NCBI GenBank assembly: GCA_001275005.1
Contig: JWZX01002498.1
Span: forward strand, 1-35,330
Origin: Chrysochromulina tobinii
Taxonomy: Eukaryota > Haptophyta > Prymnesiales > Chrysochromulinaceae
Length of the DNA: 35,330 bases
Direction of reading: 5' to 3'
Under the pieces are notes generated by a model. The model was not told where the DNA came from, made no database searches, and saw only the letters and a list, made by a program, of their open reading frames with translations. This document shows, piece after piece, positions 763 through 32,265 of the stretch (its first letter is position 1; each line of letters starts with the position of its first letter). The translations under genes and the position numbers were made by a program.

Positions 763-3071
763 ATGCGCGTGCTTTCAAAACTGTGCCCAGACGTTCAACG
801 CGCCTCACAAATGGTGGTCGCTTGCACGACGTCAGACACCACCGACGACTCGATATTCCTCACCTCTGCGTCGACTACGCGTGGCTCGGTTGTGAGTTTC
901 GAGGCAGCGCCCACGCCCGGAGATGCCCCCATGCGCTCTCGCAAGCTCAGCATGGACAGCGTCGCCTCGAGTGTGAGTTTCGAGGACCACTGCGAGTCGT
1001 CTCCGGCGAAGGCCAAGGTGCCGGACGAGCCTCAGCACTCGCTGCCGAACGACGTCGCACTGGGCCCGATCATGAGCGAGGCGCTTGCAGCGGTTAGCTT
1101 TGGGGCCGGCGCGCACGAGGCTCGCTTCTCGCGGCTCTGGACGCAGCAGCATTGCCGCGAGCTCACCGCAAGCTTCACGTGGCACGCCGTCTGCGAGCAG
1201 TTCCAAGAGAAGGACGCTGCCACCGCGGACCGCATCTTCTCGCACGTGGCCACCGCGTACGCACGCGCGCTCAGAAGCGCGCGAACGGCCGACCAGAAGG
1301 ACACTCTCGCATGGTACTTACCCCTTACCCCGAGGCTATCGAAACTTCCTGAGGACCCCTGAGGAGCACCTCTGATGACCTTTGATGACCTTTGATGACC
1401 TCTGATGACCTCTCCTTCATCACAGGTACCTACCCGAGGCGATCGCCGCCGCCGCCGTCACCGCGCTGCGCGAGGCCTACCCGACGCTTGGGGGAGAGCG
1501 GGACCAGGCCAGAAGGACGTTTGATGCAACGCTGCGGCGCACCCTGTTCGACCGTTTCGTTTTCTTCTCATCCGGATTTGGGGGCGTGCGCGACGTAGAG
1601 TGCGCCACGACCTCGCGCCACACCGAACGCGCCAGCGTCCCCGAATCGAGTGTGAACGTGAACGAATCGACAGAGGCGGTGATCCACAGGGGAGGTCACA
1701 GGGGAGGTTCGGTAGGAGGTGCGGCAGGAGTTGGAGATGGACGTGGCCACGCGGGCGGTCGAACAGGCATCGCGGGCAGCACAGGCAGCCTGCAGACCAG
1801 AGCTCTCGCGTCAAGCAGCCGTGGTGGCGGCGACGCGCATGCAAAGAGCGCCCGGGACAGCGCGGGGGACTCTCGCCAAGCGGCCCTGGCGCTTTGGACG
1901 GAGCAGCGGAGCGAGGTCGCCGCGCTCAGCGTACGCGAAAGCATCCCGCTGAGCATCGATTGGAAACGGCAGACGCTCGCGTACGCAAGCTGCCATGACC
2001 TGTGCAAAATACCTATATCCTTCTACTTGTATACTTGATGGCCGTTGATTGACGTTGATTGCGACCGATCTCCACACACTGAGTGCCACCGATTGAGAGT
2101 CTTGATTGCTTCCCTCATCAGAGGTCCCTAATTGGGATCTCGAATGCCAACGTGATTGCTTCCCTCATCACAGGTCCCTAATTGGGATCTCGAATGCCAA
2201 CGGCTCGTCGGAGGCGCAGGCGGCGTTTCGGCAAAGCCTTCGAGAGAGGGCCGAAGCGGAGCGCCTTGCGCTCCAAGGTGTGAATGTGAAGAAGCTCGAT
2301 GAGCCTCACTCATGCATCATAGGCACGCTCCCCCCTTGAGGCACTGACGACGCACCCGAAAGCCCATGAATAGGACCTTTGATGTGAATACTCGAGTAGG
2401 ACCTTTGACGGCCTTTGATAGCTTCTGATGGCTTCTGATAGCCTCGGATGGCTTCTGATAGCCTCTGATGGCGCCCCTCATCAGGCACGCTCCCGTCTCT
2501 CCGACGTACTCGACGCGACATGGCGGCATGCTCGCCGCTGATGGGGCGCTTCATCGAGCTTCGTCAACGCGCGAGCGCCGCTTCGGCGCGTGATGGTCCA
2601 TACTACATCCGCCCGAATCCGGTAAAGGCTACTCTCTCTCACGGCCGCTGATGGCATGCTGATTGCCTCCCTCATCAGGTTACATCTGCCCGAATCCGGT
2701 AAAGGCTACTCTCTCTGACGGCCGCTGATGGCATGCTGATGGCCTCTAACGGATCTCTCTGTGACTGGCTCACTGATGACCTCCCTCATCAGGTGGGCTG
2801 CTCCCTCCTCGAGCATCGAGCCTCGGTGCGCGAGCAGCAGCGCGTCGTAATGGGCACTCCCACGCTGCGCGAGGTGCGCGCTCGACTCGGCGCGCCGCAA
2901 CGAGCGCCTCTGCATGCAAGTGCTCACCACGACGCCCGCCCTCCTTCCCTACAGGTGCGCCTCGACTCGGCGCGTCGCAGGGAGCGCGTCGCGAGAGACT
3001 TCGACAAGTGCATCGCTGGCTTCAGGCACGTCGTTGCGCTTTGTGCGCACGATTGTCCGTCAACGCGGTGA
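763..3071 (+). CDS. FAM227/FWWh-like protein, six exons
   Basis: Proposed exons are 763-1313, 1426-2001, 2174-2322, 2485-2621, 2793-2873 and 2955-3071. All phases agree and give about 536 aa. Residues about 113-225 (SFTWHAVCEQFQ, then IFSHVATAYARAL, then LPEAIAAAAVTALREAYPTL) resemble the FWWh domain of the FAM227 family, which has no known biochemical role. A later segment, CSPLMGRFIEL, followed by VVMGTPTLRE fits the SPL and R-T/E motifs I recall for the same family. The N-terminus is Ser-rich and low in complexity. Intron 3 (2323-2484) is GC-AG; the others are GT-AG. In introns 1 and 5 (1314-1425, 2874-2954) the intron start copies the next exon start. Exon 2 past position 1650 is Gly/Arg-rich, and its donor at 2002 is the weakest point. 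The family call is from memory, not from a search. Confidence 0.5.
2606..2746 (+). repeat. 77-bp tandem duplication across an exon/intron boundary
   Basis: Copy A (2606-2669) and copy B (2683-2746) are nearly identical. Each contains the end of exon 4 (CCCGAATCCG) followed by the donor GTAAAGG and the beginning of the intron. Copy B lies inside the intron and is preceded by CCTCCCTCATCAG, so it forms a possible 20-nt mini-exon. That length would break the frame, so it is probably skipped. Confidence 0.85.
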
Positions 3072-4230: not shown

Positions 4231-5150
4231 GCATTTCCCTACTATGAGCTACATGTATGAAGGGCTTTACTTCTAAACATGTCTAAAAAGTGACGTTGGA
4301 CCTTTTGTGCTGCGCTTACATCGTAGTATACAAACACGTACATGGAACATTTCTATCGGGTGCGAGAACCAGCTGAGCTCGGCACGTGCAAGCTAGCAAA
4401 ATCCAAAACACGCAGTGACTCGGAGTGACGGCAACCAGGACGGCAACAAGCTGTTACCAGGAGGCACTCCCACGTCCCAGATTCATCCATGATTGCATCA
4501 TCGCCGAACGCAACGCCCCATGCGATCTGGCCCAAGCCGCAAGCGCCATCCACCGGCCACATAGTGTACTCCACACGCTCCACAGGCACAGCGGCTCCAC
4601 CCCATTTCAACGACCCCAAGCCCATCCAGCACGGCGCGATCCGCGTCGTCATAACGAGCAGAAGCTCACCGTTCCAGACCCACAAGCCGCTTGCATGCGC
4701 CACAGACCCAACTTTGGAAAGCGCAAGCTGCTTGCATGCGCCACAGACCCAACTTTGAAAGCGAAAGCAGCTCATGGCCTCGAAACCTTGCATCCACGTG
4801 CCATCGTCACATGCGCTTCACATCACATGCGCTTCACACACATCACATGCCCATCAAGCATGTGCCGACGCCCAAGCTAGTGCCATCCAGCGTGTGCCTC
4901 TACACGTCGAGTGCACCTCGTTCTGCACGAGCGACCTCGCTGAGTGACCCTGCGCAGGGGAGATCACCATCTCGAGGGAGATCACCATCTCGAGAGTAGC
5001 AGAGCGAGCTCACGTCTCTCAAGTTGATCTCCCTCGAGATGTTGATCTCCCTCGAGCTCACGTCTCTCAAGAGACCCAAAACGCCCGGCGCAGCGCGCTC
5101 AGGAATCGTCAAGAGACCCAAAACGCCCGGCGCAGCGCGCTCAGGAATCG
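4231..5150. other. Intergenic between ankyrin and EF-hand genes
   Basis: No supported gene. A minus frame (4353-4793, 146 aa) and a plus frame (4425-4880) are open, but neither has a domain I recognise. The stretch holds a 41-bp tandem repeat at 4690-4771. It also holds a block of short repeats at about 4960-5071: GGGAGATCACCATCTCGA twice, and GAGCTCACGTCTCTCAAG at 5006-5023 and 5054-5071. The left end should contain the ankyrin promoter and the right end the EF-hand 3' UTR. Confidence 0.45.
4690..4771. repeat. 41-bp tandem repeat, two copies
   Basis: Copies at 4690-4730 and 4731-4771 begin CTTGCATGCGCCACAGACCC. They differ mainly by a lost G and a few substitutions near the end. The repeat lies outside any supported gene. 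Confidence 0.85.
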
Positions 5151-5194: not shown

Positions 5195-8100
5195 GTTCAA
5201 AGTCGCGCGTCAGCCTCGCCATCAGCATCTCGTCCTGCAGGTCGTCAAAGCCCGCCTCCTCCTCCAAGCGCTTGACGAGCGCCTCCACCGACCGGGGGAG
5301 CTGCAGAGCCATCGCGCGCTCCTGCGCCCCCTCGATACGCACGAGCTTCTCGCGGAATCGCTGCGCCAACACGAGCACCTCGGGCTTCTTCTTGGCCTCA
5401 TCCGCTGACGTGGGACGCATGGACGCCTTCGCCTTCTCAACCTGTGTGGCGCGGGAGCACGGGTAGTGGCGGTGTGTCGACAGAAGCACATGGCACGCAC
5501 AGCACTACACAGCACTCGCCTGGGTGGGCAGTCCGAGGCACTCAGAGGAGCAGGGCACTCAGAGGCGATCACACGCCTGGTTGGGCCAGTAGCTGTGAAC
5601 AAAGCCACTCATGAGCATCGCCCAAGCCTCGTGCACCAAGCACCAGCCCAGCGGAGGGGCAATTGGCGCCAAGGGCTGTGGAAGAACGGTCGAGGCGCCG
5701 AGCTGGGCGCGTTGTCTCATAGAAGGTGACGGACGAGACGTCCCGAAGTCCTGGGGAGGTGAGGGGTAGGGGTGGGGGTTGGGGTTGGGTTGGGGTTGGG
5801 GGTAAAGTGTTTGGATAGGGTGTGGGGTAGGTGCGGGGGGGGGGTCTGGTAGGGCGTGGGGTACGTGCGGGGAGTCTGGGGTTGGGCGTGGGGTAGGTGC
5901 GGGGTGACCTGCAAGACCGATGTCGACAGGCTAGCGAAGAGCGCGCAGGTGCAGCCCATGGCGCGCCTATACGTGGCTTCCTCCGAAGCTGTCCATGGTG
6001 GCTGTGGCACACAGCTCACGTTTACGAACAGAAAGAGCTCTGAAAGGCTTTGCCGTTTCGTCTCACGATGGAGGTGAGCGATGAGGTTGGCAAAGGCGGC
6101 GCTCGCTTCGGGGCTATCGAGGTCGACCCTCGGCTCGATCTCGGCGACGAGATCGTATCCTAGGGCTCGTGGCTCTACTGCCTCCTTCCCCGCCTCCTTC
6201 ATCGACGCCCCCTCTGCCCGTGTCCCAGGCTGCAATGCCGCCGCGTTGAGCACGAGGATGGAACGGTCAGCACCTGCGATCGCAATCAGACGCACTCATG
6301 GGTACGATCGCAATCCGACGCACGCCGGATAGCGGCAACGGCCTCCTCAGTCGTCATCACTCGTCATCAGTCGTCATCACTCGTCATCACTCGTCATCAC
6401 TCGTCATCAGGGCGCACGTCGGATAGCGGCAACCGCCTCCTCAGTCGTCATCAGTCGTCATCAGTCGTCATCAGTCGTCATCAGTCGTCATCAGTCGTCA
6501 TCAGTCGTCATCAGGGCGCACGTCGGATAGCGGCTACCGCCTCCTCAGTCGTCATCAGTCGTCATCAGTCGTCATCAGGGCGCACGTCGGATAGCGGCTA
6601 CCGCCTCCTCGGGCGTCGCGAAGGCGTCGGCAGGTAGCTCTTGCATGCGCTGGAAGCGCGAGGGCGGCGGGGGCGGCGGGGGCGGCGGGATCGTGTCAAC
6701 CGAGGCGCGGCGCGTGAGCGGGGAAGGGCTGCTGCTTGTCTGGCTGCACGAAAGCGGGGGAGGGCTGCCGCTCGAGCTGCGCGTAAGCGGGGGAAGGTGA
6801 CCGCTCGCCAAGGCGCTCGGCACACTCCTCGCTGCGGCTGTAGGGCCCCCGCTCGAACCTGCATGCAATCGCAAGCACAGACGCCCTCGCATGGTGAGTA
6901 GACAGTGCCAATCAGCGGAGAGATCATATCTCGAAAGGGAACATCAGCGGAGAGATCATTATATTTTTGAAAGGGCCTTTCTCTGCAGGGGCTCGCGCCA
7001 TACCGCCTCCGCCACTGCCTCCGCCACTGCCTCCATGACCGCCTCCGTGACCGCCTCCGTGGCCGCCGCCGCCACCGCTGACGTTGCTCGCGAGAGGGAG
7101 CCCCTGCAGCCCCAGCAGCCAGCTGCACCGCACAAGCTTGAGGACACCCTCAGCAAGCGCCGTCGCGAGCGTCTCGTCGACGGAGCTCATCGTTGATTGC
7201 ACCTGCTCGCGGAAGCTCGGGCCGGCGGGAGGAACGCCCGCGCCCGTCACGGCGCCCTTGCCGACGGCCTGCGAGCGGTGCCCGGCAGCGAGCCCTTTTT
7301 TGCGCTGGTCCGCTAGGCTCACCGCCGTCTGCAGCAACGTGTTGAGCTCCTTGTACTCAATCCTGCCGCCCTCGTCCTTGTCGAGTGAGGCGAAGCGCTC
7401 GTCCGACTCCGCCTGCGTCACGTTAAACCCAAGGGCGCGCAGAGAGCGGAAGAATTCGTGTTGATCGATCTTGCCGTTGCAGTCCTCATCCCATAGTGTG
7501 AGCAGGTCGATTACGCGTGCTGATGAGCGAGAGATCGCTGCGTGCAGCTCATGGTTGATGACCTCCCTGATGTCGACGCTCCCGTCGCCTGTGGTGTCGA
7601 GTGCGTCGAAGCGCCGGCGCAGCGCCTCGTCGCTGAGCCCCTCGCTACGCCCCTCACTGTCCCCCTCGCTGCGACCCTCGCTGCGACCCTCGCTGCGCTC
7701 CCCTTGCTCGCGCGCACGGATGAAGTCGCAGAACTCACCAAAGTCCAGGAGCCCGTCTTGCATGGTGCCCGTGCGCACCTGAGATGATCGAGGCCATATC
7801 AGCATGCAATCAGCATGCAATCACTAGCAATCACCGGAGCCCGCCTTGCATGGTGCCCAGTGCGCACCTGTGATAGGGGAAGGCCATTCGAGGCCATCTA
7901 TCGCAATCAGAGAGGCCCTCAATCGCAATCAGAGAGGTCCTCAGACGCAATCAGAGAGGTCCTCAGACGCAATCAGAGAGGTCCTCAGACGCAATCAGAG
8001 AGGTCCTCAGACGCAATCAGAGAGGTCCTCAGGCGCAATCAGAGGCCCTCTTTTGATTTTGAGTTCTTGGTGCGATTGCATGCAGTGCGCACTTCGTCTA

Positions 8101-11100
8101 CAGATCGAGCTGCTTGCCTCCCTGCTGCGCGCACATCGCGTTGCTTGGCCTCCTTCTCCATGAGTTTCGTCACCTGTGATGAGGGAGGCAATTCGAGGCC
8201 ATTCGAAGACATCAGATGCAATCAGAGGCCATCAACGAGGTTCTCAATGGGCTTCGTCACCGCCGTTCGGGTGCGCATTGCCCCTCTCATCGACTCGAGG
8301 AGCTGATCGACAGCCACATTCTGACATACCTGTGGTGACGAGGGAAGCAATCAGAGCTCATCAGAGGATTCGTCACACTTGTTGCCAATAGAGGCCCAAT
8401 ACTGACGATGGGTAACGATGGGCTCGACGCTCAAGCAATCAGAGCTCATCAGAGGGTTCGCCACACTTGTTGCCGGTAGAGGTCCAATTTAACGATGGGC
8501 TCGACGATCAAGCGTCGAGCCCGGCGCTCTTCGAAGACACTCTCACTCAGGAGCGCGGGAGGTTGCATCTCCCCGCGGTTCGTCAGGAGCGCGGGAGATT
8601 GAATCTCCCCGCTTTTCGAGCGCGAGCCACGGCTCGAGCCCCGGCTGGACAGCGCCAGCCGTTCCCACTTGCTTGGAGGCTTGGCGGGCGGCGGCGGCTT
8701 CGGGCCTGTCTTGCGTGAGGACTTATTCGCAAGGGCAAGCTCGCCGCGGCGCAGCATCCGATAGATTGTGAACGGGCTCACCTGCATGCACAGCCATCAA
8801 TATTCGATCAGCCTGCATCCAGCCTGCCATCAGCCTGCCATCAGCCTGCCATCAGCCTGCCATCAGCGTGCAATCGGCGCGTCATCCTATAGAGTACCTA
8901 ACGATCACATCAGCCATCAATCCATCAATCACCGGAGCAAGCTTCGCAAAGAGCTGATCCACTTGATGAAGGAGGCAATCAGCATGCGGATCACCGGAGC
9001 AAGCTTCGCAAAGAGTTCATCCACTTGATGAGGGAGGGTCGTACTGAACCCAAGGTCGATCATCGTCGCCAATTGGAAGTCGGCACGCAGCAGCTTGCCG
9101 TCGCCATCATAGTCCCATTTGCGGAAGAAGGCGAGCGCCTCGTCCGCGTGCTCGGCGAGCTGCAAGCTGAGTGGCTGCACGGCTTCAAAGTACTGGAGGA
9201 CGAGTGCGTGAGGGCTCGACTCATCCTGAGCACCGCCCGCTCGCGACTGCGCGCGAAGGGCATGCAAGTCCTCAACCTTCACCCTTCCGCGCGCTTCGGC
9301 ATCGAAGGCCAAGAAGAGCTTATCGACGCCCAACGGGTTGATTCCGACACTCCCCGTGCGAGGGAGGGCGGCCCCAAACTGGCGGCGGTTGAGCGCACCG
9401 CCATGCTCATGCGCCTGGGAGAGGAGGACCTCGATCAACAGACCTTTGGCGTTGGCGCCCCGCGTGACGCCCCAGCAACCCGCCGTCTCGAAGAAAGAAT
9501 CCGCGAACATCAGTTTCTCCCTCGATCTCCGTCGATTCATCGAGCCGTTACTCCACTCGTCGAGGACCTTTTTGGCGGCCGTGTCCCCAGCCTGACCCCC
9601 GGGTTCAAGCTCGTGTGGTGAGCCTGGCTCCGCCGGCAGCGGGGAGCCGGGCTTGGGAGGTGGCATTTCGCAGATCTCCTTTTGGGTGATCGGATGACGT
9701 GTCGTGCGCTTGACGAAACGCGTGGGTCCGCCGTGACGAATCATGCGGTGCATCTCGAGGAGGGTGAGCTCACCATCGCCGTCCACATCCAAGCGTTCAA
9801 AGAGGGCATGCAAGTCATGCTTGTCCGCTGGGCGAGCCCGCCGCCTTCAGGGCGGCTCCAAACTCCTTCTCGTCGACGCTGTTGGTCGCGTCCGTGTCCC
9901 ATTGACGGAGCATGTCGATCGTGCGCGCGCCACTTCGAATGAGGCACTCCTGCAGCTTCTCTACGAGCATATCGCCCGAGTACGTCTTCGCCTGTGGCCA
10001 CACGATGGCCATCGTCGGCATGTAGGAGAGGGTCGGGCGATTGCGCAAGTGCGACCTCGTCGGTCTCCCGTCGTCCTTGAGCGACTCCAGTGCGGCCGAA
10101 GAGTCCGCCACGGCACGTGGCGGCACATTGCCACGAGCGAGGGCGCGCAGCAGCTCATGCGCAGCCACGGATCGGGAGGCATGCCTGATGAGGGTCTCGT
10201 GCTCAGGCTCGATGATGGCACGACCAAGCTCCGGCTCAGGGCTGTCGGCATCGGGGGCGGCATCGTCGATGCCGCCGTCGAGGTCGAAGTCCGCAGATCC
10301 AGAGGAGAGCGCACCGCCGTCCTCGGAGTGATTGCATGCTGATTGCACGCCGTCCTCGGAGGAGGTGAGCAGCTCCACGCCGGGTAGAGCGTCGAGCAGC
10401 CCTTGAATCTCAACCACCGAGATATTGAGCGGCGGCCACACCGACTCGTGCTGCGTTATCTGCCAGAGGCCATCCGCGAGGATCGTCTTGTCGACAAAGC
10501 CGTGGCCGTCGTCGAGCTTGGTGAGCAGCTCTCGGATCCGCATGCGTTCCTGCGCCCAGACCCGCACGTTCAGGAGCCGTGCCACCTCGATGGGCGACCT
10601 GTGGAGCACTCGTCCGAGTGTGGAGAGCGGCGCGAGGGTCGGCGACGACCTGCACTTGATGAGCTCGCTCTTCCGACGAGACGGATCAAGCCGAGCACCA
10701 TCACTGAGGAGCTTGGTGAGCTTGGATTGTGGAGCCCCGTACAAGGCAGCCGCAGCATCCACGCCCGGTGGTGGTGGCAGCGGGCCCGGCGCAGAGACGC
10801 AGTACTCAAATATCAGAGGTGGCACGGATCGGCCGCTTGTTCTTTCGCGAGGGGACATGTGCAAGGCTGTTCTCGACCTCGCCGCGTCGTCGGGCGACGC
10901 TTCGGTTGAGTGAGACGCGACCACCCGCCGAGGCCGTGGCGGCGGGATGCCCAAAGTTGGCGACAACATCGAGCGAGCTCCTCCGGCTGGACGGCCTCCT
11001 CGTCTCGAAGACGCGCACAGTGGGGGACTTGTGAAACGTCCGATATTCCCTTTTGCACAAAACCCCGATTGCATGCATTTGTGGAAGTAAGCTACAGTTG

Positions 11101-19292: not shown

Positions 19293-21275
19293 TCACCGCA
19301 TCTCAGGGGATGCGTTCTTGGCGCCCGACTCGTCGCCCAGGAAGGTGGCGAGCACCGCCGCCGCGAGCGCGAGCTGCTTCTTGAGCGAGAGCCGGTACGA
19401 GACGAGCGCAATCTGGCACGGGAGCACCGGATCTCCCCGCGCAGATGCCATCTCGAGCGCGAGCAGCTCCTTCGCGTCCTCATCGAGCGAGGTCGTCATC
19501 TCGCCCAATCTCCACCGGATGGCGGCGAGCAGCGGCGCGGGTCTGATGGGCTCCTCGCCCTTGGGCACCTGATGAGGGAGGCCATCAGCATGCAATCAGG
19601 CGCGGGTCTGATGGGCTCCTCGCCCTTGGGCACCTGATGAGGGAGGCCATCAGCATGCAATCAGGCGCGGGTCTGATGGGCTCCTCGCCCTTGGGCACCT
19701 GATGAGGGAGGCCATCAGCATGCAATCAGACTCAATCAGTCTGATGGGCTCCTCGCCCTTGGGCACCTGATGAGGGAGGCCATCAGCATGCAATCAGACT
19801 CAATCAGTCTGATGGGCTCCTCGCCCTTGGGCACCTCCCCCAGCAGGCACTCGAACGATGATGATGGCCATGCAAGGGCAATCAGCGCACCTCCCCCAGC
19901 AGGCACTCAAACACAGCCGCGAGCCGCGCCGACGAGGCCAGCGACGAGCCGCGATGCGCGTCAAACGCCGCCAGCAAACCGCCGATCGCCGCGCTCGACT
20001 CGGTGAGCGGTGTCGAGGGACTTGCGGCGGCAGCTGCCGTAACCCCCGGGGCGTTGGCCGCGATGGCAGCGCCGAGGGTCGCACGCAAAAGCTTCGCATC
20101 CTTGGCACACCCGTCGCTTGGCACGAAGCCATACTGAGCGAAGAGTTGCTCACCTGATGAGGAGGCACGCAGATGCCATCAGATGCGAGCAGAAGACGCA
20201 AGCAGACGCAAGCAGAAGGTGCAAGCAGACGTAATTGATGATGGATGCAATCAGGTGCAATCAGATGCAATCAGTCCTCACTCGAGTAGTCCGGATCGTA
20301 ATTGATGGTCACCTCCTCCCCTGGCTTGAGGTCGGCTAGCGCGGTGAGCGTCGCGCCGTCTTGGGCATCGACGCGGAAGTTGGCCGTGGGCACGTCCGCG
20401 TGCTGCGCCATGTCCAAGAACGGCACGAAGGCGAATGTGTCGCCGTCGGCCATCGCAAAGCAGCGCGAGACCACGAGCGCATACGCGTAGGGCAGTGGAC
20501 GAGGGATGTATTCCATCGGGAAGCCCCTGTTTGTGTAGGAGGCGGTGACCGGGTGCGTCGCGTGCGCGTGGAGCGATGGGTGCAGATCCTGGAAGAGCGC
20601 CCTCTTGGCCTGCACCTTCGCTTGCAGCTCCACATTCTGCAGCTCCGGCAGCATAGCCTGTGGAAGACAGAGCGGGTGCGTCATCGACGGCGGCGGCGGC
20701 ATCAACTTGCGATAGTCGTCCCAGAAGCCGCCCGCTCCGCCCGCGGTCGCTTCGTAGACGGCGAGCGCGAGCCGCACATCCCATGTGGCGCCGCGCTGGA
20801 AGAGCTCCTCGCCGACCTCCTCGCGCAAGTCGCCAGCGGCCTCCCACATGACTTCCGTTTGGCCCTGAAGACCACCGATGCGTCCTGAGCGATGCGCGGT
20901 GAGCAGCAAGCTGGCGGGAACCGAGAGTACAATGTCACCCTTGCTCACTGCGCGACGCGTCACCAGCCGCCGGCCGCCGCTGCCACGCGCTGACCCTTCC
21001 AGCGTGATAGCGGTCAGCGGATCGTGCTCGGTGAGGAGCGCCGTAAAGAGTGCCGTGGGTCCGTCCGGCGGCTGCTGCAAGCTGATGGCGCTCACTCGTT
21101 GCCTGCAACGATGGCCGGCGCTCAGCCCGTAGGAGGCGCATGCGACAGCGTCGAGTGCTGAGTGGAACCCGAGCATGTTTGCGGCGAGCATTGTGGTTTG
21201 GCGTCGCAAATGGATCTGGAAAATCTCAAATCTGAATTCGGTGAGTGTTTGGAACAGGACACGGTTCGCGCTCAT
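19293..21275 (-). CDS. SET-domain lysine methyltransferase, RuBisCO-LSMT/SETD3 class
   Basis: Minus exons 20282-21275, 19891-20153 and 19293-19568 give 510 aa, or about 482 aa from the ATG at 21191. The split SET domain shows GDIVLSVPASLLLTA, then YAYALVVSRCF, then FAFVPFLDMAQHAD, the NHxxxP-like region here changed to QHADVPTANF. GEEVTINYDPDYSS follows, with the Tyr of the active site, and EQLFAQYGFVP is the post-SET signature of this class. A helical substrate-binding domain follows, ending in ALVSYRLSLKKQLALAAAVL. Members methylate lysine or histidine in RuBisCO, other plastid proteins, actin or ribosomal proteins, using S-adenosylmethionine. The N-terminus could be a plastid or mitochondrial presequence. 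Exon phases close exactly (phase 1, then phase 0). Intron 2 (19569-19890) contains repeated copies of the exon-3 start. Confidence 0.87.
19569..19890. repeat. Four tandem units of intron end plus copied exon start
   Basis: Units are 19569-19633 and 19634-19698 (65 bp each), then 19699-19766 and 19767-19834 (68 bp each). On the minus strand each unit has a splice acceptor (CCTCCCTCATCAG) followed by the start of exon 3 (GTGCCCAAGGGCGAGGAGCC). The leftover 19835-19890 copies the end of exon 2 (TGCCTGCTGGGGGAG). The intron therefore contains four extra acceptors and several possible mini-exons. Confidence 0.92.
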
Positions 21276-21341: not shown

Positions 21342-23728
21342 TCAGCCCGCGAGCTGGACGCACTGCCGGCGTACCCGAAGCTGCTTGCCGTTGCCGAGCT
21401 CGACGAGATAGCGCGCCGTCTCGGTATCGTGCTCGAGCACGCGCGCGAGCTCACCATTCAGATGCGTCGCCGTGGACGCCTGCAAGCCCGCGACGACGCC
21501 GACGCTCTGCACGGGCAGCACCGCCGCGCCGACGGGCAGCGGGATTGCATCTCCCGAGCCGAGCTCGACGCCGTACAGCTGCGCGGCTTCGTCAAACTCA
21601 AAGACGGTCGCGCTCGCGCCGTTGTGAGCGCTGTGCTCGCCCACGAGCCCTTCAATGCGCACCTGATGAGGGAGGCAATCCGAATGAAATCAGCATGCAA
21701 TCAGCATGCAATCGGCATGCAATCAGCATGCAATCAGCATGCAATCAGCGCACTTCGAGCATCTGGAGCAGATTGAGACGGCGCACGCGCAGCAACGTGC
21801 CGTCCCGCAGCGCCACTGTGTATCGATCCGCCTCGCTCTCATACCCCTTGAGGACGCCCACCTGCCCATCCGATGAGGGCGGCCATCAGCATGCAATCAG
21901 CTTGCAATCAGCATGCAATCAGTACCCCTTGAGCACGCCCACACCTGCCCATCTGATGAGGGCGGCCATCAGCATGCAATCAGTTCCCCTTGAGCACGCC
22001 CACACCTGCCCGTTGCGTTCGGCAGCCCCCTTGAGCCCGCGCAGCTTGACGTACCTGATGAGGGAGGCAATCAGCATGCAATCAGCATGCAATCAGCATG
22101 CAATCAGCATGCAATCAGCATGCAATCAGCATGCAATCAGCATGCAATCATTCCCCTTAAGCGCAGCTTGACGTACCCGTCGATGGGCAGCGTCATCAGA
22201 GCGCCGTGTGGAGCGCCACCTGACGAGGCGGGTGCCGCCCCCTCCGCTGCCGCCATTGCCGCCGCCGCCGCAGCCGATGGCTGACCGGTAGAGGCGCACG
22301 CGGCGACTCCGGTCGGTGCTCGGGACGCCGCCGCCGCCGCTGGCTCGGGCGCTCGGTACAGCGCGTGTGGCTCCGGCGGTGCTGGCGGCGGCGTGGTCGG
22401 CCGTCGTAACGACATCCGCCGCGCCTCATCGACCGTGCCATCCGGGGCGCGCTTGCGATTGCCATCGTACAGGGACGCATGCAACCGCCGTTCGTTGAAC
22501 CAACGGCCATCCATGGCGGCGAGGCATGCCTGATGATGGGAGCAATCAGGCGCCATCAGCTGTCGCACTCAGAGGCTTTCGGTGGCGAGGCCTGCCCTGA
22601 TGATGGGAGCAATCAGAGGCATGCCTGCCTGATGATGGGAGCAATCAGAGGCATGCCTGCGCGCTTGCCGCCTGTGTGAAACGGACGGCCATCGGCCCGT
22701 CCATCTCTGCCGCGAAGGACTGCACTCGCTCGACCTCGCCGAAACGCAAGCACTCGCACCTGCCATCAGCAATCAGCATGCAATCAGCATGCAATCAGCA
22801 TGCAATCAGCATGCAATCAGCATGCAATCAGCATCTCGCTCGTCGTGCAATCGTCATCCAATCAGCATGCAATCAAAGCACTCGCACCAGACAGATTCCT
22901 CAAGGGCACCGAGAAAAGCGCGCACCTGCCATCAGCACGTCATCAGCACGTCATCAGTTGACCAGCATAGGCAATCATACGCACTCCAATGCAATCATAG
23001 CCAATCATACGCACGTCGCCGCAGCTGCCCATCTGATGAGGGCGGCAATCAGCATGCAATCATACGCACGTCCCCGCAGCTGCCAAGCTCTTCGATGGAG
23101 AAGAGGTTCGTCAGCACCACCACGCGTGCCCAGTCCTCCTTGGGCACGGCGCCGCGCGCCTCGAAGTGCGCTGCGCTCACCTGTGGGAAAGAGGGTGGGC
23201 GCGCCGTGGTGAGCACCTGCATGCAACGGCGTCTCCCTCCGCCAAGTGCGCCGCGCTCACCGTGAGCGTGTCGCCGAAGAGAGCCCAGTCGCGCGAGAGG
23301 GCGGCCTGCAGGCCCGCGTCGGTCGCAAAGGTCACCAAGCCATCGCCCTTCGGCTCACCGGCCGCATCCTTGTACAGCTTGACCCTGCGCACCTCGCCCG
23401 CCTTCGAGAAGAGCGTCTGCACCGCTGTCCAGACGACCTCCTTCGGGATACCCGTAACGTAGGCGGTGAAATTGGCCACGTTGGCCTCGGCGGCGGCGGC
23501 CTTCTCCTTGCGCCGCTCGGTCTTGCGCTGCAGCTTGCGCCGGCGCTGCTCCTCGGCTGATTCGGCGCCCGCCGCGCTCGTCGAGGCGAACACGGAAGCC
23601 CACGCTTCTTCCTTGGTGTCGCGCTCGTCGTCACTGCCGCCGACGGAGCCGCTGGCCATTTCGAAATTGCGCTTCTGTGCCTTGGCCAGGCGCTCCTGCT
23701 CGGCCATCATCGCGGCTTGGTACGCCAT
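21342..23728 (-). CDS. Tat-SF1/Cus2-like splicing factor with RRM and UHM, eight exons
   Basis: Minus exons 23261-23728, 23070-23180, 22888-22925, 22657-22759, 22177-22529, 22006-22054, 21754-21861 and 21342-21662 join in phase to 516 aa. A first RRM (residues about 86-160) contains FTAYVTGIPKEVVWTAVQTL and GDGLVTF. The second, about 175-270, is a U2AF-homology motif: SVWCECLRFGEVERVQ, PMAVRF and the diagnostic R-x-F motif in GRWFNERRLHA. This pairing is that of HTATSF1/Cus2, which bind SF3B1 and help U2 snRNP assembly. The C-terminal 165 residues hold two or three repeats of the type RNGQVGVLKGYESEADRYTV, an SH3/KOW-like module absent from the animal protein as I recall it. Introns are 80-144 bp. 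Most begin with a copy of the next exon's start, and intron 4 (22530-22656) is GC-AG. Start chosen at the first ATG. Confidence 0.85.
22070..22150. repeat. 11-bp intron satellite, GCATGCAATCA
   Basis: About seven perfect copies of an 11-bp unit (plus strand CAGCATGCAAT) fill intron 5 of the Tat-SF1-like gene. The same unit recurs in introns at about 21690-21750, 21890-21920, 22770-22870 and 23050, and in the SET intron at 19580-19800. It is also present near 7800 and near 10330. Its centre, GCATGC, is palindromic. Confidence 0.92.
22514..22656. repeat. Repeated GCATGCCTG / GATGATGGGAGCAATCAG units
   Basis: The intron 22530-22656 contains three copies of CTGATGATGGGAGCAATCAG, each beside a copy of the exon-5 start (minus GCATGCCTC or GCAGGCCTC). 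Units near 22593-22625 and 22626-22656 are about 33 bp. The middle copy is diverged. Confidence 0.85.
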
Positions 23729-25688: not shown

Positions 25689-28600
25689 TTAATAGAATCC
25701 GCCCGCCTCCGCAATCGCCGCCCTGATGGCGGCGTCGCCGTCCGCCAGAGTCCGAATCGCCACCCTGATGGCGGGGTCGCCGAGCGCCAGAGTCCGCAAC
25801 GCGCCGGCAGCGTTTGCCAAAAGCGCACCTGATTCCCAGAGTTTGATCATCCCGTCGACCGATCCCGACACGATCTTCGATCCGTCCGGGGAAAACGCCA
25901 CCGACATGACGTGGCTGCTGTGCGCGTCCGTCTTCTCGCTCAACAGCTCCAGCTCTGCCAGACAAGCCAGCATCCGTCAGTTTTGGCCAAGGAGGGGCGA
26001 TTCTGAGGGCTCACGGCGCACCTGAATCCCAAACTTTGATCGTCCCGTCGTACGATCCAGAGACAATCTTGGTCCCGTCCAGGGAGAACGCCACCGACAT
26101 GATCTCGCTGCTGTGCTCGTTCGTCTTCTCGCTCAAGAGCCCCAGCGCGCCTGCGAGACAAGCCAACAAGCGTCAGTTTTGGCCAAGGAGGGGCGATTTT
26201 GAGCTCGCGGCGCACCCAAATCCCAGACTGTGATCGTATTGTCGTCCGATCCGGACACAATCTTGGTCCCGTCCGGGGAAAACGCGACCGACCTGATCCA
26301 GCTGCTGTGTGCGTTCGTCTTCTCGCTCAGCATCTCCAGCTTGCCTGCCAGACAAGCCAAGAAGCGTTAGTATTGGCCGAGGAGGGGCGATTTTGAGCTC
26401 GCGGCGCACACGAATCCCAGACTTTGATCGTCCTGTCGTGCGATGCTGAGACAATCTTGGTCCCGTCTGGGGAAAACGCCACCGAACTGACGATGTTGCT
26501 GTGGGCGTCCGTCTCCTCGCTCAACAGCTCCAAGTTGTCTATCAGACAATCCAACAAGCGTCAGTTTTGGCGAAGGAGGGGCAATTTTGAGGGCTCACGG
26601 CGCACCTGAATCCCAGACTTTGATCGTCCCGTCGACCGATCCCGAAACGATCATGGTCCCGTACGGGGAAAACGCCACCGACATGACGATGCCGCTGTGC
26701 GCATCCGTCTCCTCGCTCAACAGCTCCAAGTTATCTGTCAGACAATCCAACAGTGTTGGCCAAGGAGGGGCGATTCTGAGGGCTCACGGTGCACCTGAAT
26801 CCCAAACTGTGATCGTCCCGTCCTCCGATCCCGACACAATCTTGGTCCCGTCCAGGGAGAACGCCACCGATTTGATCTCGCTGCTGTGCTCGTTCGTCTT
26901 CTCGCTCAAGAGCCCCAGCGCGCCTGCGAGACAAGCCAACAAGCGTCAGTTTTGGCCAAGGAAGGGCGATTTTGAGCTCGCGGCGCACCCGAATCCCAGA
27001 CTTTGATCGTCCCGTCGTACGATCCTGAGACAATCTTGGTCCCGTCTGGGGAAAACGCCACCGAACTGACGATGTTGCTGTGGGCGTTGGTCTTCTCGCT
27101 CAACAGCTCCAGTGTGCCTGCCAGACGAGCCAGCAGGAGTCACTTTTGGACAAGGAGGGGCGATTTTGAGCTCGCGGCGCACCTGAATCCCTGCAGACTT
27201 CGATCGTCCGGTCGTCCGATCCCGACACGATCGCCTCCATCGCCGCTTGGATGGCGGCGTTGCCGGCAGCCAGAGTCCACAACGCGCCGGCCGCGTTCGC
27301 TTTGCCCTGAGCGTCACCGTCGCGCACGAGCGCCACGAGCGCCTCAACGGCGCCCGCCGCCGCCATCGCCGCCTTGTTGGCTTTGTTGTGCGCTAGCTTC
27401 CCCAAGGCCTCCGCGGCTGCGGCACGCTCCTCAGCGGTACCATCTCTGAGCATCGCCACCAGCGGCGGGAGGGCGCCGGCCGCGGCGAGTGCCCCACGCA
27501 TCGGATCCGTCGATTGAGCTGGCGGTGCGTCGGCGAGACTGGCGATGCCACTCGCCACCGGCGTCCGCGCACCGATGGCGCACGCTTGGAGCAATGCCAC
27601 CAGCGCCGCAGCCGGATCCACGTTAGCCACAGCGCGCTCCACCTCCTCGGTGGTGAGAACGCTCTCCGAGGCGATTCCGAGCACCTCGAGTGTCTTTGCC
27701 TTCATCGGCTCCACCTGAAGCATCTGCTCGCGGATCATGACGCGCTCGGCCGCACAGGCCTCCTTCCAGTCCGTCATCTCGTTGGCCGCCTCGAGCACGA
27801 GCTCCGCCGTCGACTGCTCGCGCCAAACAAACGTGCCGCGCTCGTGTGAGGCCTGCGTTTGCAGCTTTGCCACGATCGCCTCGGTAAACGCGGGGAATCG
27901 CTGCAACTTGAAAGTTGAGGCGTCAGCGGCGAACGCCTGCTTCGCCTGGCTCACAAACCTGTGCTGGCTCTCCATAGCGCTCTTCACCATCGCCAGGTGC
28001 ATCGCGGCGAGCCCAGTGCAACCACCAGGCTTCACCAGCTTCGAAACCGTCGGCTTGATGATGCTATCAAAGCATTCATCAGCCACCCCACCCATCGCCT
28101 CGTCCAGCACCGCCTCGGCAGCTCGGCACGCCGCCGCCCGAAGCTCGTCGAGGGCCGGGCCGGTCGGCGCCTCGACCGCCTCAGGCAAGCCGAGCGCATC
28201 GCACTTCGCCTGCAGCCGCTTGAGCTCTCCGTTGAGGCGGATCAGCGTCTGTGGTGCCCAGGTGCTGCGCAGATATCGGGCGTAGACGCTGCTCAGCTTG
28301 TCCACGAGCGCGTCGCACGTCAGCAGGCCATCGGACAACAGCGGCGCTAGCAGCGGCTGCGACGCAAACCACTTGCGCTCGGCCGTCGCCATCGCCTCAA
28401 GCCGCTGCACGTTGCTCAAACCCTCACCCTTGATCGGCTCCGTCATCGTGCCGATGAAGCCGTGCGGTGCGAGCTGAAACGCATCGCCCGACGTCTGCCT
28501 CAGCCGGTCCGGCAGCTTCTTCATGTCCAGCTTCCCGACGTTGTCGCACATCGTCACCACGCCGATCGTGTCGCTCTGCAGGCCCAACTCCTCCACCAGC

Positions 28601-29892: not shown

Positions 29893-32265
29893 CTACGCAG
29901 CCAGTGCCGCACCGTCAGGGTAGGCTGGCGCAGACGACGGTGCGCTCGGCGGCGAGGCCACGCTCCTCAGCTTGTGACTCAGCTTGCGGCGCCCTCCCAA
30001 GCTCTGGTCCGAATTTGGGGTCCCAGGGGGGGTCCAAGGCTGTGCGTCGTGGAATTGGGTCCGGGGGGGAGGCTCTGGGGCATCCCCGTCATTTCCGGGA
30101 GGGGTGCTTGGCTCGGCATCTTGGAAATCGTCGAGGGAGGCGAGCGAGGCGGAGGAGGAGGAGGCACGCGAGGCTCGTCGGGCCTCGTCGCACATCAGCC
30201 GTCGAGAGGACAGAGCGGAGAAACCACCGCCGCCGACGCCGCTGCCGAAGCCATCGCCGCCGCCCGCTCTGGCACCTGCGCCAATGCCAGCAGCCCTTCC
30301 GCTGTCCTCAATCGCCACGAACGCACGCCACCGATGAAGGCTCGCGAAGACGAGCGAGCGGGCCCAGTGGCGAGCCCACGAGCGCACAAGAACCGCACCA
30401 CACCAGTGGCCGAGCGCTCGCTGCTCCTCGCCCATCACGGCGCGCGTGCGGCGCAGCGCCCAGTGTGCCTGCACTAGGCGCTCCCGCCAAATGGCCTCGC
30501 CCTCGGCGGCAACGCTGCCCGCGGAAGCGCCGGAAGCGGCGGCGACGCCAGTAGCGGAAGCGCTGGAGGCGGCGGAGACAGTAGGGTTAGGGTTAGGGTT
30601 AGCGGTGGAGACGGTAGGGAGAGCAGGTGCGTTGAGTGCCTCTGATGACGTGCGTTGCATGCAAGCGCTCACCACGACGCCAGTAGCGGAGGCGTTGGAG
30701 ACAGTAGGGTGGCGGTTTGGCGGCGGCAGCCCCAGCGTAGTCGTTGCGCAACGGGCAGCGGCTTCAGCGGCGGCAACCTGCTGCTGCTGCGGCTGCGGCT
30801 GCTGCTGCTGCACGAACGCTCGCCACACCCGGCACGCGTCCTGCACTCTCCGCGCATCCCAGCACTGTCCGAGGGTGTTCAGCAGGCTGAGGGCATGGGC
30901 ATGGCTACGTGCCCGGGCATAGGCCGTCGCTCGATGGGTCGCGCGTCGACTGCCCTCGAGCGCCGCCACCACCAATGTCGAGTGCCAGCGGCGGAGGCAG
31001 TGACGTGTCGACCGCTCGTCAGACAGGCGGATGGCGCGGCGTAGCGTCTGGCGGCACCGCACCACACGTGCCGCATCGCCAGCCGCGAGCGCGTCGTCCT
31101 GAGCGCCACGGATGTGGCCGATGAGGGGCGCGTCGTCCTGGGCGCTACGGGGGTGGCCGATGAGGGGCGACGTGGTAGCATCGATGGCGGCGTGGGCATC
31201 ACGTGCCGCATCGGTGGCGGCGGCCGCCGCTTTGCATCCCTTCCTCCCGAGATCGTCCCTTCCTTCCGAGATTCCTCCCGAGATCGCCGCTTTGCATCCC
31301 TTCCTCCGAGCCCTCTCGAGATCATCCCGGAGGGTCTCGATGATCGGCTCAACCTCCCGAAGAGCTCCGACGGAGATCGGCTCAACCTCCCGAAGAGCTC
31401 CGACGGAGATCGGCTCAACCTCCCGAAGAGCTCCGACGGACGCCGCCTCCATGTGCGTCGCAATCACAGTGTCGTCAATCTCCCGAAGAGCTCCGACGGA
31501 CGCCGCCTCCATGTGCGTCGCAATCACAGTGTCGTCAATCTCCCGAAGAGCTCCGACGGACGCCGCCTCCGTGTGCGTCGCAATCACAGTGTCGTAGAGG
31601 GAGAGCAGCGCGCGCATGTCCGCCGCCGGCAGCTCCTCCGCTACCGCGCCGCCGCCGCCACCACCACCGCCGCCACCACTACCACTACCGTTGTCGCCAC
31701 CGCTGCCGCCACCGCCACCGCTGTCGCCACCGCCACCGCCACCAAGGGTGAGTGTGAGAGAGCGCAGAAGCGCCGGCTCGAGCACCGTCTCGGGCGCCGT
31801 CTCGGGCGCGTGCTCATGGGCCGCGAGCAGCGCCCGGAACGACGCGAGGGCGACGGCGCGCTGGTTGGCGCGGCAGCTTGCGGCCAGGAGCGTGGTGACC
31901 CCGGCGACCGGGGGCGTCCAGCCGGCGTCCACTATCTGTGTGAGGAGGGCGTGGGCCGCACCGACTGCGTCCGCGTTGGCCATCGAGAGTGCGGCGCGGC
32001 TTGTGAGGGTGAAGATAGCGCCGTACGCCGCCTCGCTCGGCGTGTAACCGTCGCGCTGGATCGCCGTGAAGAGCGACGTGGCACGCGACGTCATCGCCGC
32101 GGACGGCTCTGCGGCGAGCTTGACGACAAGGGCGCTGCGGTCGCCCGATGTTGCCTGGTGGCCGAGAGCGGTGAGCTCGTGCTCGAGGTTCAGGCACTGC
32201 TCAAGGGTGCCCTCGGCGAGACACGCGCGCAGCAGCTGCACTAAAGCATCGACGCCCAGGGAAGC

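Follow-up and report, generated by a model that had tools for sequence, protein, structure and literature searches.

The origin of new spliceosomal introns is an old question. Introners are a known mass source of introns, and the prevailing view takes them for DNA transposons that leave short target duplications; in the parts of PMC9860276 drawn on here, they are described as repeated intronic elements flanked by target duplications, the duplicated target providing one of the two splice sites. In Symbiodinium microadriaticum, for example, a splice site comes from a 4-bp duplicated target, and a family in Chrysochromulina sp. carries its own 5' splice site and leaves a 4-bp duplication. Duplications of characterised introners measure 3-9 bp, and the published survey requires similarity to start within 10 intronic bases of both boundaries (PMC9860276, same parts).

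Direct repeats at introns are known from other settings as well. As reported in the consulted portions of PMC4202315, Daphnia neointrons (33 cases) have an exon-derived direct repeat of variable length, 4-12 bp, at the far end of the intron. The invasive introner elements of Amoebophrya carry direct repeats of 3-5 nt at their borders, inverted repeats of 8-20 nt and many non-canonical splice sites (PMC7789003, in part). Rogers and Bendich (2025) examined 213 introns of all classes and report that every one has direct repeats, 4-30 bp long with a mean of 11.4, at its borders or close to them (PMC11782384, in part). Finally, the AGGT model derives introns from tandem genomic duplication, in which a duplicated exon segment supplies the splice sites (PMC3443670, in part).

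The window, by which we mean the whole stretch of 35,330 nucleotides analysed here, comprises bases 1-35330 of contig 1350 in a genome of 53.15 Mb and 2,253 contigs. Its G+C content is 0.60-0.70 in 2-kb steps, and a scan against Rfam at gathering thresholds gave no match within it. The locus of interest is a Tat-SF1-like gene, placed by homology and phase, with exons of 468, 111, 38, 103, 353, 49, 108 and 321 nt. The eight-exon model of the earlier note is borne out: every phase closes, giving a protein of 516 aa that matches chains of HIV Tat-specific factor 1 in the PDB (E 1.3e-16). Five of 14 database homologues (P0001, P0003-P0006) show 48-52% identity across 96-99% of this protein and, in an alignment of eight of the 14, have gaps of at most one residue at the seven junctions (P0003, P0004 and P0006 each carry one additional residue at junction 2, and P0006 another at junction 7). 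In the same alignment, P0010 has an insertion of about 48 residues directly before junction 2. Homology and phase together suggest that the gene is spliced as modelled. The closest named relatives, P0012 from Chrysochromulina parva (95% identity along 12% of the query length) and P0013 from Prymnesium parvum, indicate a Chrysochromulina-like haptophyte. Another sequence, P0009, is 99% identical over exon 1 and reads into a first intron of its own, similar at the start and different further on. Exon 1 spans window 23728-23261; in P0011 and P0012, its first part continues into other sequence, which in one of the two includes an FKBP-type domain (PF00254), a putative exon-level fusion or duplication.

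The earlier note claimed that the introns of this gene start with a copy of the next exon's start. This is real, and all four repeats that it quoted are exact. It left out the repeats of introns 2, 4 and 7, and its interval ends with intron 5, short of introns 6 (22005-21862) and 7 (21753-21663). From intron 1 to intron 7, the exact prefixes shared between an intron and its own downstream exon are 8, 5, 12, 9, 16, 3 and 6 nt, while among 42 mismatched intron/exon pairs the longest prefix is 6 nt, seen once. Introns 1, 3, 4 and 5 are clearly above chance against these 42 pairs; introns 2 and 7, taken alone, are not. The match of about 20 nt in intron 6 exceeds chance only with a 2-nt gap, and gaps were barred in the mismatched-pair control. 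Intron 2 has, in addition, an internal copy of about 30 nt of the exon 2 end and intron start, flanking a repeat unit. Intron 4 is of the GC-AG type because its duplicated target begins with GC.

What the earlier note overlooked is that the remainder of each of these introns is a genome-wide repeat. We denote the duplicated target copy R (R1 on the left, R2 on the right) and the repeated element between the copies E, so that the intron consists of R1 followed by E, and the exon begins with R2 (Table 1). We are highly confident in this R-E-R anatomy, with the donor half of the intron coming from the exon copy and the acceptor half from E.

Table 1. Coordinates of the modelled genes, introns and repeat units in the window
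Feature	Position	Strand	Details
Tat-SF1-like gene, 8 exons	21342..23728	-	ATG 23728, stop at 21342; model from homology and phase
Tat-SF1-like intron 1, 80 nt	23181..23260	-	R1 23260-23244; family B element 23225 to 23181; R2 = exon 2 start 23180-23164
Tat-SF1-like intron 2, 144 nt	22926..23069	-	GTGCG (5 nt) is the whole match to exon 3; internal copy flanks a family A unit
Tat-SF1-like intron 3, 128 nt	22760..22887	-	R1 22887-22876; family A array to 22760; R2 22759-22748
Tat-SF1-like intron 4, 127 nt, GC-AG	22530..22656	-	R GCATGCCTC (9 nt); second copy within intron
Tat-SF1-like intron 5, 122 nt	22055..22176	-	R1 22176-22161; family A (11-mer) array 22150-22055; R2 22054-22039
Tat-SF1-like intron 6, 144 nt	21862..22005	-	two units R-E-R-E; R starts 22005, 21944; last copy = exon 7 start 21861
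Tat-SF1-like intron 7, 91 nt	21663..21753	-	R GTGCGC (6 nt); family A array
SET-gene first intron	20154..20281	-	R GTGAG (5 nt); family A-like repeats
SET-gene second intron	19569..19890	-	serial 68- and 65-bp units; R about 27 and about 35 nt; restart at same GT
Family A intron	8174..8260	-	20-nt R
Family A unit	7779..7867	-	31-nt R
Family B intron	2874..2954	+	R1 33-34 nt and 43-nt element ending CCCTACAG
R-E unit	2124..2173	+	target copy 29/29 nt identical; 21-nt element
Likely intron	1314..1425	+	diverged target copy (GTACTTACCC...); TGATGACC repeats

Two repeat families, each ending like the 3' end of an intron and each present at more than 1,000 places, account for the E sequences; the hosts identified by homology are the Tat-SF1-like gene and a neighbouring SET gene. 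Family A, which fills introns 2-7 of the Tat-SF1-like gene, is a tandem of the 11-nt TGATTGCATGC followed by pyrimidines and ending with CTCATCAG (or GATGGCAG, GGGCAG). Its doubled 11-mer occurs at 272 exact places genome-wide, counted along arrays (reversed control 0), and its end joined to GT at 1,139 places, with tandem neighbours each counted. Family B, found in intron 1, is about 40 nt long and runs from GCATGCAAGTGCTCACC to CCCCACAG, with the layout GCATGCAAGTGCTCACCACGGCGCC, a short variable tract and CCCCACAG; its 25-nt core occurs at 1,783 places with at most 2 mismatches (control 0). In both families, a branch-point-like motif precedes the pyrimidines and the final AG (CTGAT in A and CTCAC in B, which we take to be branch-point-type sequences), and neither has a 5' splice site of its own. 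The hexamer GCATGC occurs both in family A arrays and at the left edge of family B; read as RNA, UGCAUG matches the binding motif of the RBFOX splicing factors. Family A ends also recur every 22 bp in a very short tandem form on two contigs of the genome (G000 C815:10203-10326 and C267:12974-13031). A scan of IMG/VR with the family B core returned one contig (L071, IMGVR_UViG_3300027760_000958), with the core at 4495-4517, at the extreme contig end. The remaining frames of this contig, which is filed as viral, look bacterial or phage by eye, and it is probably a chimeric assembly.

In 20 sampled family B copies with an exact core (L051-L070), six do not end with CACAG: one has CATAG, one TAATTAG, one a nested second copy, and three (L055, L065 and L068) break off at GGCGCC without a clear splice end. 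The existence of copies without a splice end indicates that this end is not required, and any count of GT after it is conditional on its presence. Of these 20 copies, 15 have a readable tract between GGCGCC and AG, and no two of these tracts are the same, with both ends constant, which is odd for a recent master element; some tracts do recur among the 100 listed of the 169 places where family B adjoins GT. Within the same 100 listed places, five pairs of copies 73-80 bp apart share a tract and one more pair differs by a single base, as if from duplication of the whole unit, and a pair on contig C609, 76 bp apart, has different tracts, as if from serial insertion.

The SET gene adjoining the Tat-SF1-like gene agrees with the R-E-R picture, as judged from its predicted introns. 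Its joined protein has 482 aa, a SET domain (E 1.2e-5) and 42 database relatives. P0018 and P0019 (70-73% identity) run continuously through both junctions, and most others have an insertion that lies a few residues past the second. P0015 is the cluster of the window's own SET frame (97 members) and reads into intron 1; P0016 and P0017 (94%) appear, from their read-through, to have the first intron at the same position with different repeat content. The orientation of the elements relative to genes was taken from these two homology-modelled genes, Tat-SF1-like and SET. Elsewhere in the window, positions 25823-27232 hold 7.3 imperfect copies of a 194-bp tandem repeat, possibly a repeat-protein gene with one intron per unit. 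An interstitial telomere-like TAGGGT x3 lies at 30582-30599, near a family B core at about 30657 without a clear splice end.

A test with shuffled pairs, proposed in the earlier note, was run on element-anchored introns and was passed clearly. For family B, 38 copies (at most 4 substitutions in a 23-nt core) gave 30 with an AG end and 28 with enough flank, 18 of them from 20 stretches around listed exact matches and 10 from other sequence. When the downstream exon was matched, anchored, to the 90 nt upstream of E, R scored at least 8 in 23/28 copies against 13/756 shuffled pairs, and at least 12 in 19/28 against 3/756; five of the 28 copies had no R at a score of at least 8. The longest matches were 44/44 nt (L069), 42/43 (L037), 39/41 (L066) and 34/35 (L054). 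For family A, 165 ends were collected from the window, 20 random stretches and 8 array-chosen pieces, and 103 were left after 62 that ran into element sequence were excluded. Here, R scored at least 10 in 39/103 ends against 21/1,360 shuffled pairs, and at least 15 in 32/103 against 0/1,360; at least 5 of these loci were read on both strands, because family A ends resemble each other on either strand. A narrower initial test of family A had given a score of at least 16 in 16/32 ends against 2.9% of shuffled pairs. Such results rule out chance similarity as the source of the R copies.

A scan that began from the repeats themselves, in the window and 20 sampled 10-kb stretches, was noisy, with many short direct duplications of other kinds, and for this reason we rely on the element-anchored tests. 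In the 20 stretches, AG/GT starts were enriched 2.5-fold (11/1,267 against 66/18,941, P 0.008), with GG/GT slightly higher (11/1,077); in the window, the enrichment was 4-fold (5/224 against 19/3,316, P 0.015), with CA/GT slightly higher (5/183). An open-frame check across 23 family B joins gave 18/23 spliced, 18/23 unspliced and 19/23 antisense, random joins being open in 76%; these similar rates make the check non-discriminating in G+C-rich DNA.

Altogether, 67 copies scored at least 9. We kept the 44 that are no longer than 150 nt and in which each R copy begins with GT or GC; 21 were dropped because of their start and 2 because of their length, and some of the 21 are opposite-strand readings or gapped starts. 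In the 44 kept introns, R measures 9-45 nt (median 25; alignment limit 45 nt for family A and 60 nt for family B), the identity of the two copies has a median of 0.94, the intron has a median of 81 nt, and four begin with GC. With target copies that are 94% identical at the median and 97-100% in several cases, the R-E family is abundant and apparently recent. The repeats are thus too variable for a fixed footprint, as the earlier note had argued, and the lengths that it quoted, about 6 to over 20 nt, proved too short in view of L069. This spread within one genome bears on whether E might be a MITE-like DNA transposon, whose transposase would cut the two strands far apart and leave unusually long target duplications. 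The introners described so far have for the most part been interpreted as DNA transposons (PMC9860276, in part), and family A has short inverted ends (5 bp by eye, CTGAT...ATCAG). However, inspection by eye revealed no terminal inverted repeat in family B, a target duplication of fixed length is not seen, and the footprints on record are shorter, 3-9 bp for characterised introners of the DNA-transposon type and 10-15 bp for MITEs (PMC9860276 and PMC7789003, each in part). We consider such a transposon decidedly unlikely.

The internal order of the introns is regular. In all 18 family B introns measured, 28-51 nt separate the 5' splice site from GCATGC downstream of it, and R1 ends at most 6 nt from GCATGC in 14/23 of the family B copies that have an R. 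When starts from -6 to +15 were searched, the best R start fell 0-6 nt left of the AG junction in 17/22 family B copies. The longer R is, the shorter E tends to be (Spearman -0.50, P 5e-4, n=44), an anticorrelation partly built in by the 150-nt limit and expected if only introns long enough for splicing survive. Serial units are found in Tat-SF1-like intron 6 and a SET-gene intron, and also in L057 and L061, where the E copies that share a site differ from each other.

In intron 6 and in L034, the repeat takes in the AG preceding GT, so that AG/GT is duplicated whole. This would fit the simple tandem duplication of a piece of exon that includes AGGT, followed by minisatellite growth within the intron, and short direct duplications are indeed many in this genome. 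The earlier note had proposed both such a tandem unit and a target duplication with an exon-derived 5' splice site; the latter holds, and the former is contradicted for most introns examined, in which a dispersed, non-exonic repeat family lies between the copies. Plain tandem duplication is therefore highly improbable. Template switching, replicative or by a reverse transcriptase, would account for the intervening repeat in another way: a polymerase would copy R, then E from an existing intron, re-enter upstream and copy R again. The sequence GATGGGCAG follows both the element of intron 2 and the first of the elements in intron 6, and GGCAG occurs in the exon 2 target, as would be expected of re-entry guided by a short match; moreover, the exon base preceding R is G in 34/44 kept introns, with AG in 21/44. 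Against this, 39/44 junctions share only 0-3 nt left of GT, and identical E ends recur precisely. We regard template switching as quite unlikely.

Copies of the elements adjoin GT far more often than expected. Among 189 exact-core family B copies with CCCCACAG, GT follows in 169, G without T in 13 (nine of them GC) and another base in 7, the last count having been made with a pattern two bases longer. The expected frequency of GT after ACAG is 5.3% (n=1,078, 200 kb of random stretches). The family A end is followed by GT at 1,139 places, by G without T at 345 and by a base other than G at 186, the latter two being inflated by arrays; tandem copies in all these counts are not independent. Part of the bias could be due to selection, if copies outside genes are lost. 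In C. tobin, an assembly of 59 Mb with 63.4% G+C has 16,777 genes of 1,899 bp (PMC4580454, in part), from which we compute that genes fill about 54% of it, a figure whose transfer to the present genome is an assumption. If insertion were random and selection acted in genes alone, most copies should be non-genic and begin arbitrarily. A link of insertion to transcribed or spliceable targets is therefore probable. We rejected strict integrase specificity for GT, as the 21 copies dropped above begin otherwise.

The same 21 copies, and the variable length of R, would be accommodated by staggered double-strand breaks repaired by end joining, in which filled overhangs would yield R on both sides of captured stray DNA, and the survivors would be those carrying a 3' splice end at GT. 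The Daphnia repeats have been read in this way (PMC4202315, in part). Nevertheless, capture of stray DNA fails to explain why one unit of roughly 40 nt, its two ends included, recurs at 1,783 places, and it leaves the 169 of 189 copies at GT unexplained if about half of the DNA is non-genic, as in C. tobin (PMC4580454, in part). Break repair deserves some weight but is, on the whole, unlikely.

The scenario that we favour, and to which we would give an even chance as a whole, is that small, non-autonomous mobile sequences carry only the 3' half of an intron, namely, a branch-point-like motif, a pyrimidine tract and the final AG. The target would be cut or copied with a stagger, placing some 9-50 nt of exon on either side of E. 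The left copy, starting with GT, would become the 5' splice site and E the rest of the intron, and the right copy would be the untouched exon, so that splicing would restore the exact message. As the new AG/GT junction would again be a usable target, serial R-E-R-E-R arrays could arise. Insertion would be RNA-templated, by a short RNA ending at the intron's 3' AG and priming at the staggered break. We favour this route, in a form linked to transcription or splicing, for three reasons: E stops on its 3' side where a spliced intron RNA would end, R is variable and intact copies lie at GT. The genome contains 26 matches to reverse transcriptase domains (RVT_1), 22 of them over the cut-off. Two observations speak against the route: family B has a fixed 5' end, and some copies lack a splice end. 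Target-primed reverse transcription usually gives ragged 5' ends; family B shows no ragged 5' truncation among copies that were found by their core, a search that would miss 5'-truncated ones.

A further step is tempting, and we put it forward tentatively, as an improbable idea worth stating. The mobile unit might be the 3' end of an excised intron RNA, reinserted by the splicing machinery itself, which would join its AG to a GT in transcribed DNA or RNA by reversing only the second splicing step, and then reverse-transcribed at a staggered break. If so, each insertion would remake AG/GT and hence its own next target, and the spread of half-introns would be invisible to introner surveys based on similarity.

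Overall, these introns point to a division of labour in which the acceptor half alone comes with the element and the donor half comes from a long stretch of duplicated host exon. Many young copies retain their target duplications, which makes the mechanism testable. Surveys that need similarity at both intron ends would undercount intron gain.

Among known systems, target-primed retroposons (LINE/SINE), such as the rotifer R9, combine a fixed 3' end of the insert with a variable, long target duplication. We likewise find a variable duplication adjoining a fixed 3' end of the element, with the usual end absent in 6 of the 20 sampled copies; in contrast to such retroposons, E is about 40 nt long, has a fixed 5' end and is tailless. 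The introns of the AGGT model share a duplicated exon segment that supplies splice sites, whereas here a dispersed repeat lies between the copies and AG usually comes from E (PMC3443670, in part); the introns are not made of duplicated exon sequence. The invasive introns of Amoebophrya also have direct repeats at their borders, but ours are GT/GC-AG and have no long inverted repeats by eye (PMC7789003, in part). Like Daphnia neointrons, these introns have an exon-derived repeat at the far end, which is longer than described there, up to 45 nt, and is accompanied by one repeated insert (PMC4202315, in part). The repeats of Rogers and Bendich lie anywhere in 80 bp around a border and, in the portion of the paper drawn on, come without a common mobile insert, whereas R is anchored to the junction and was tested against shuffled pairs (PMC11782384). 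Direct repeats at introns are thus not new; the novelty here lies in the shared insert and in the length and anchoring of the repeats. Our search of open PubMed Central papers, which was not exhaustive, found no 3'-half introners with long duplications. By the working definition of introners, family B agrees at the 3' end and departs from it at the 5' end, since similarity begins 28-51 nt inside the intron, and this locus-specific 5' sequence should let R-E introns escape the published survey (PMC9860276, in part). The elements are introner-like, with duplications of 9-45 nt that are long and variable next to the 3-9 bp of characterised introners, and, supplying the 3' rather than the 5' splice site, E is the mirror image of the Chrysochromulina sp. 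family (PMC9860276, in part).
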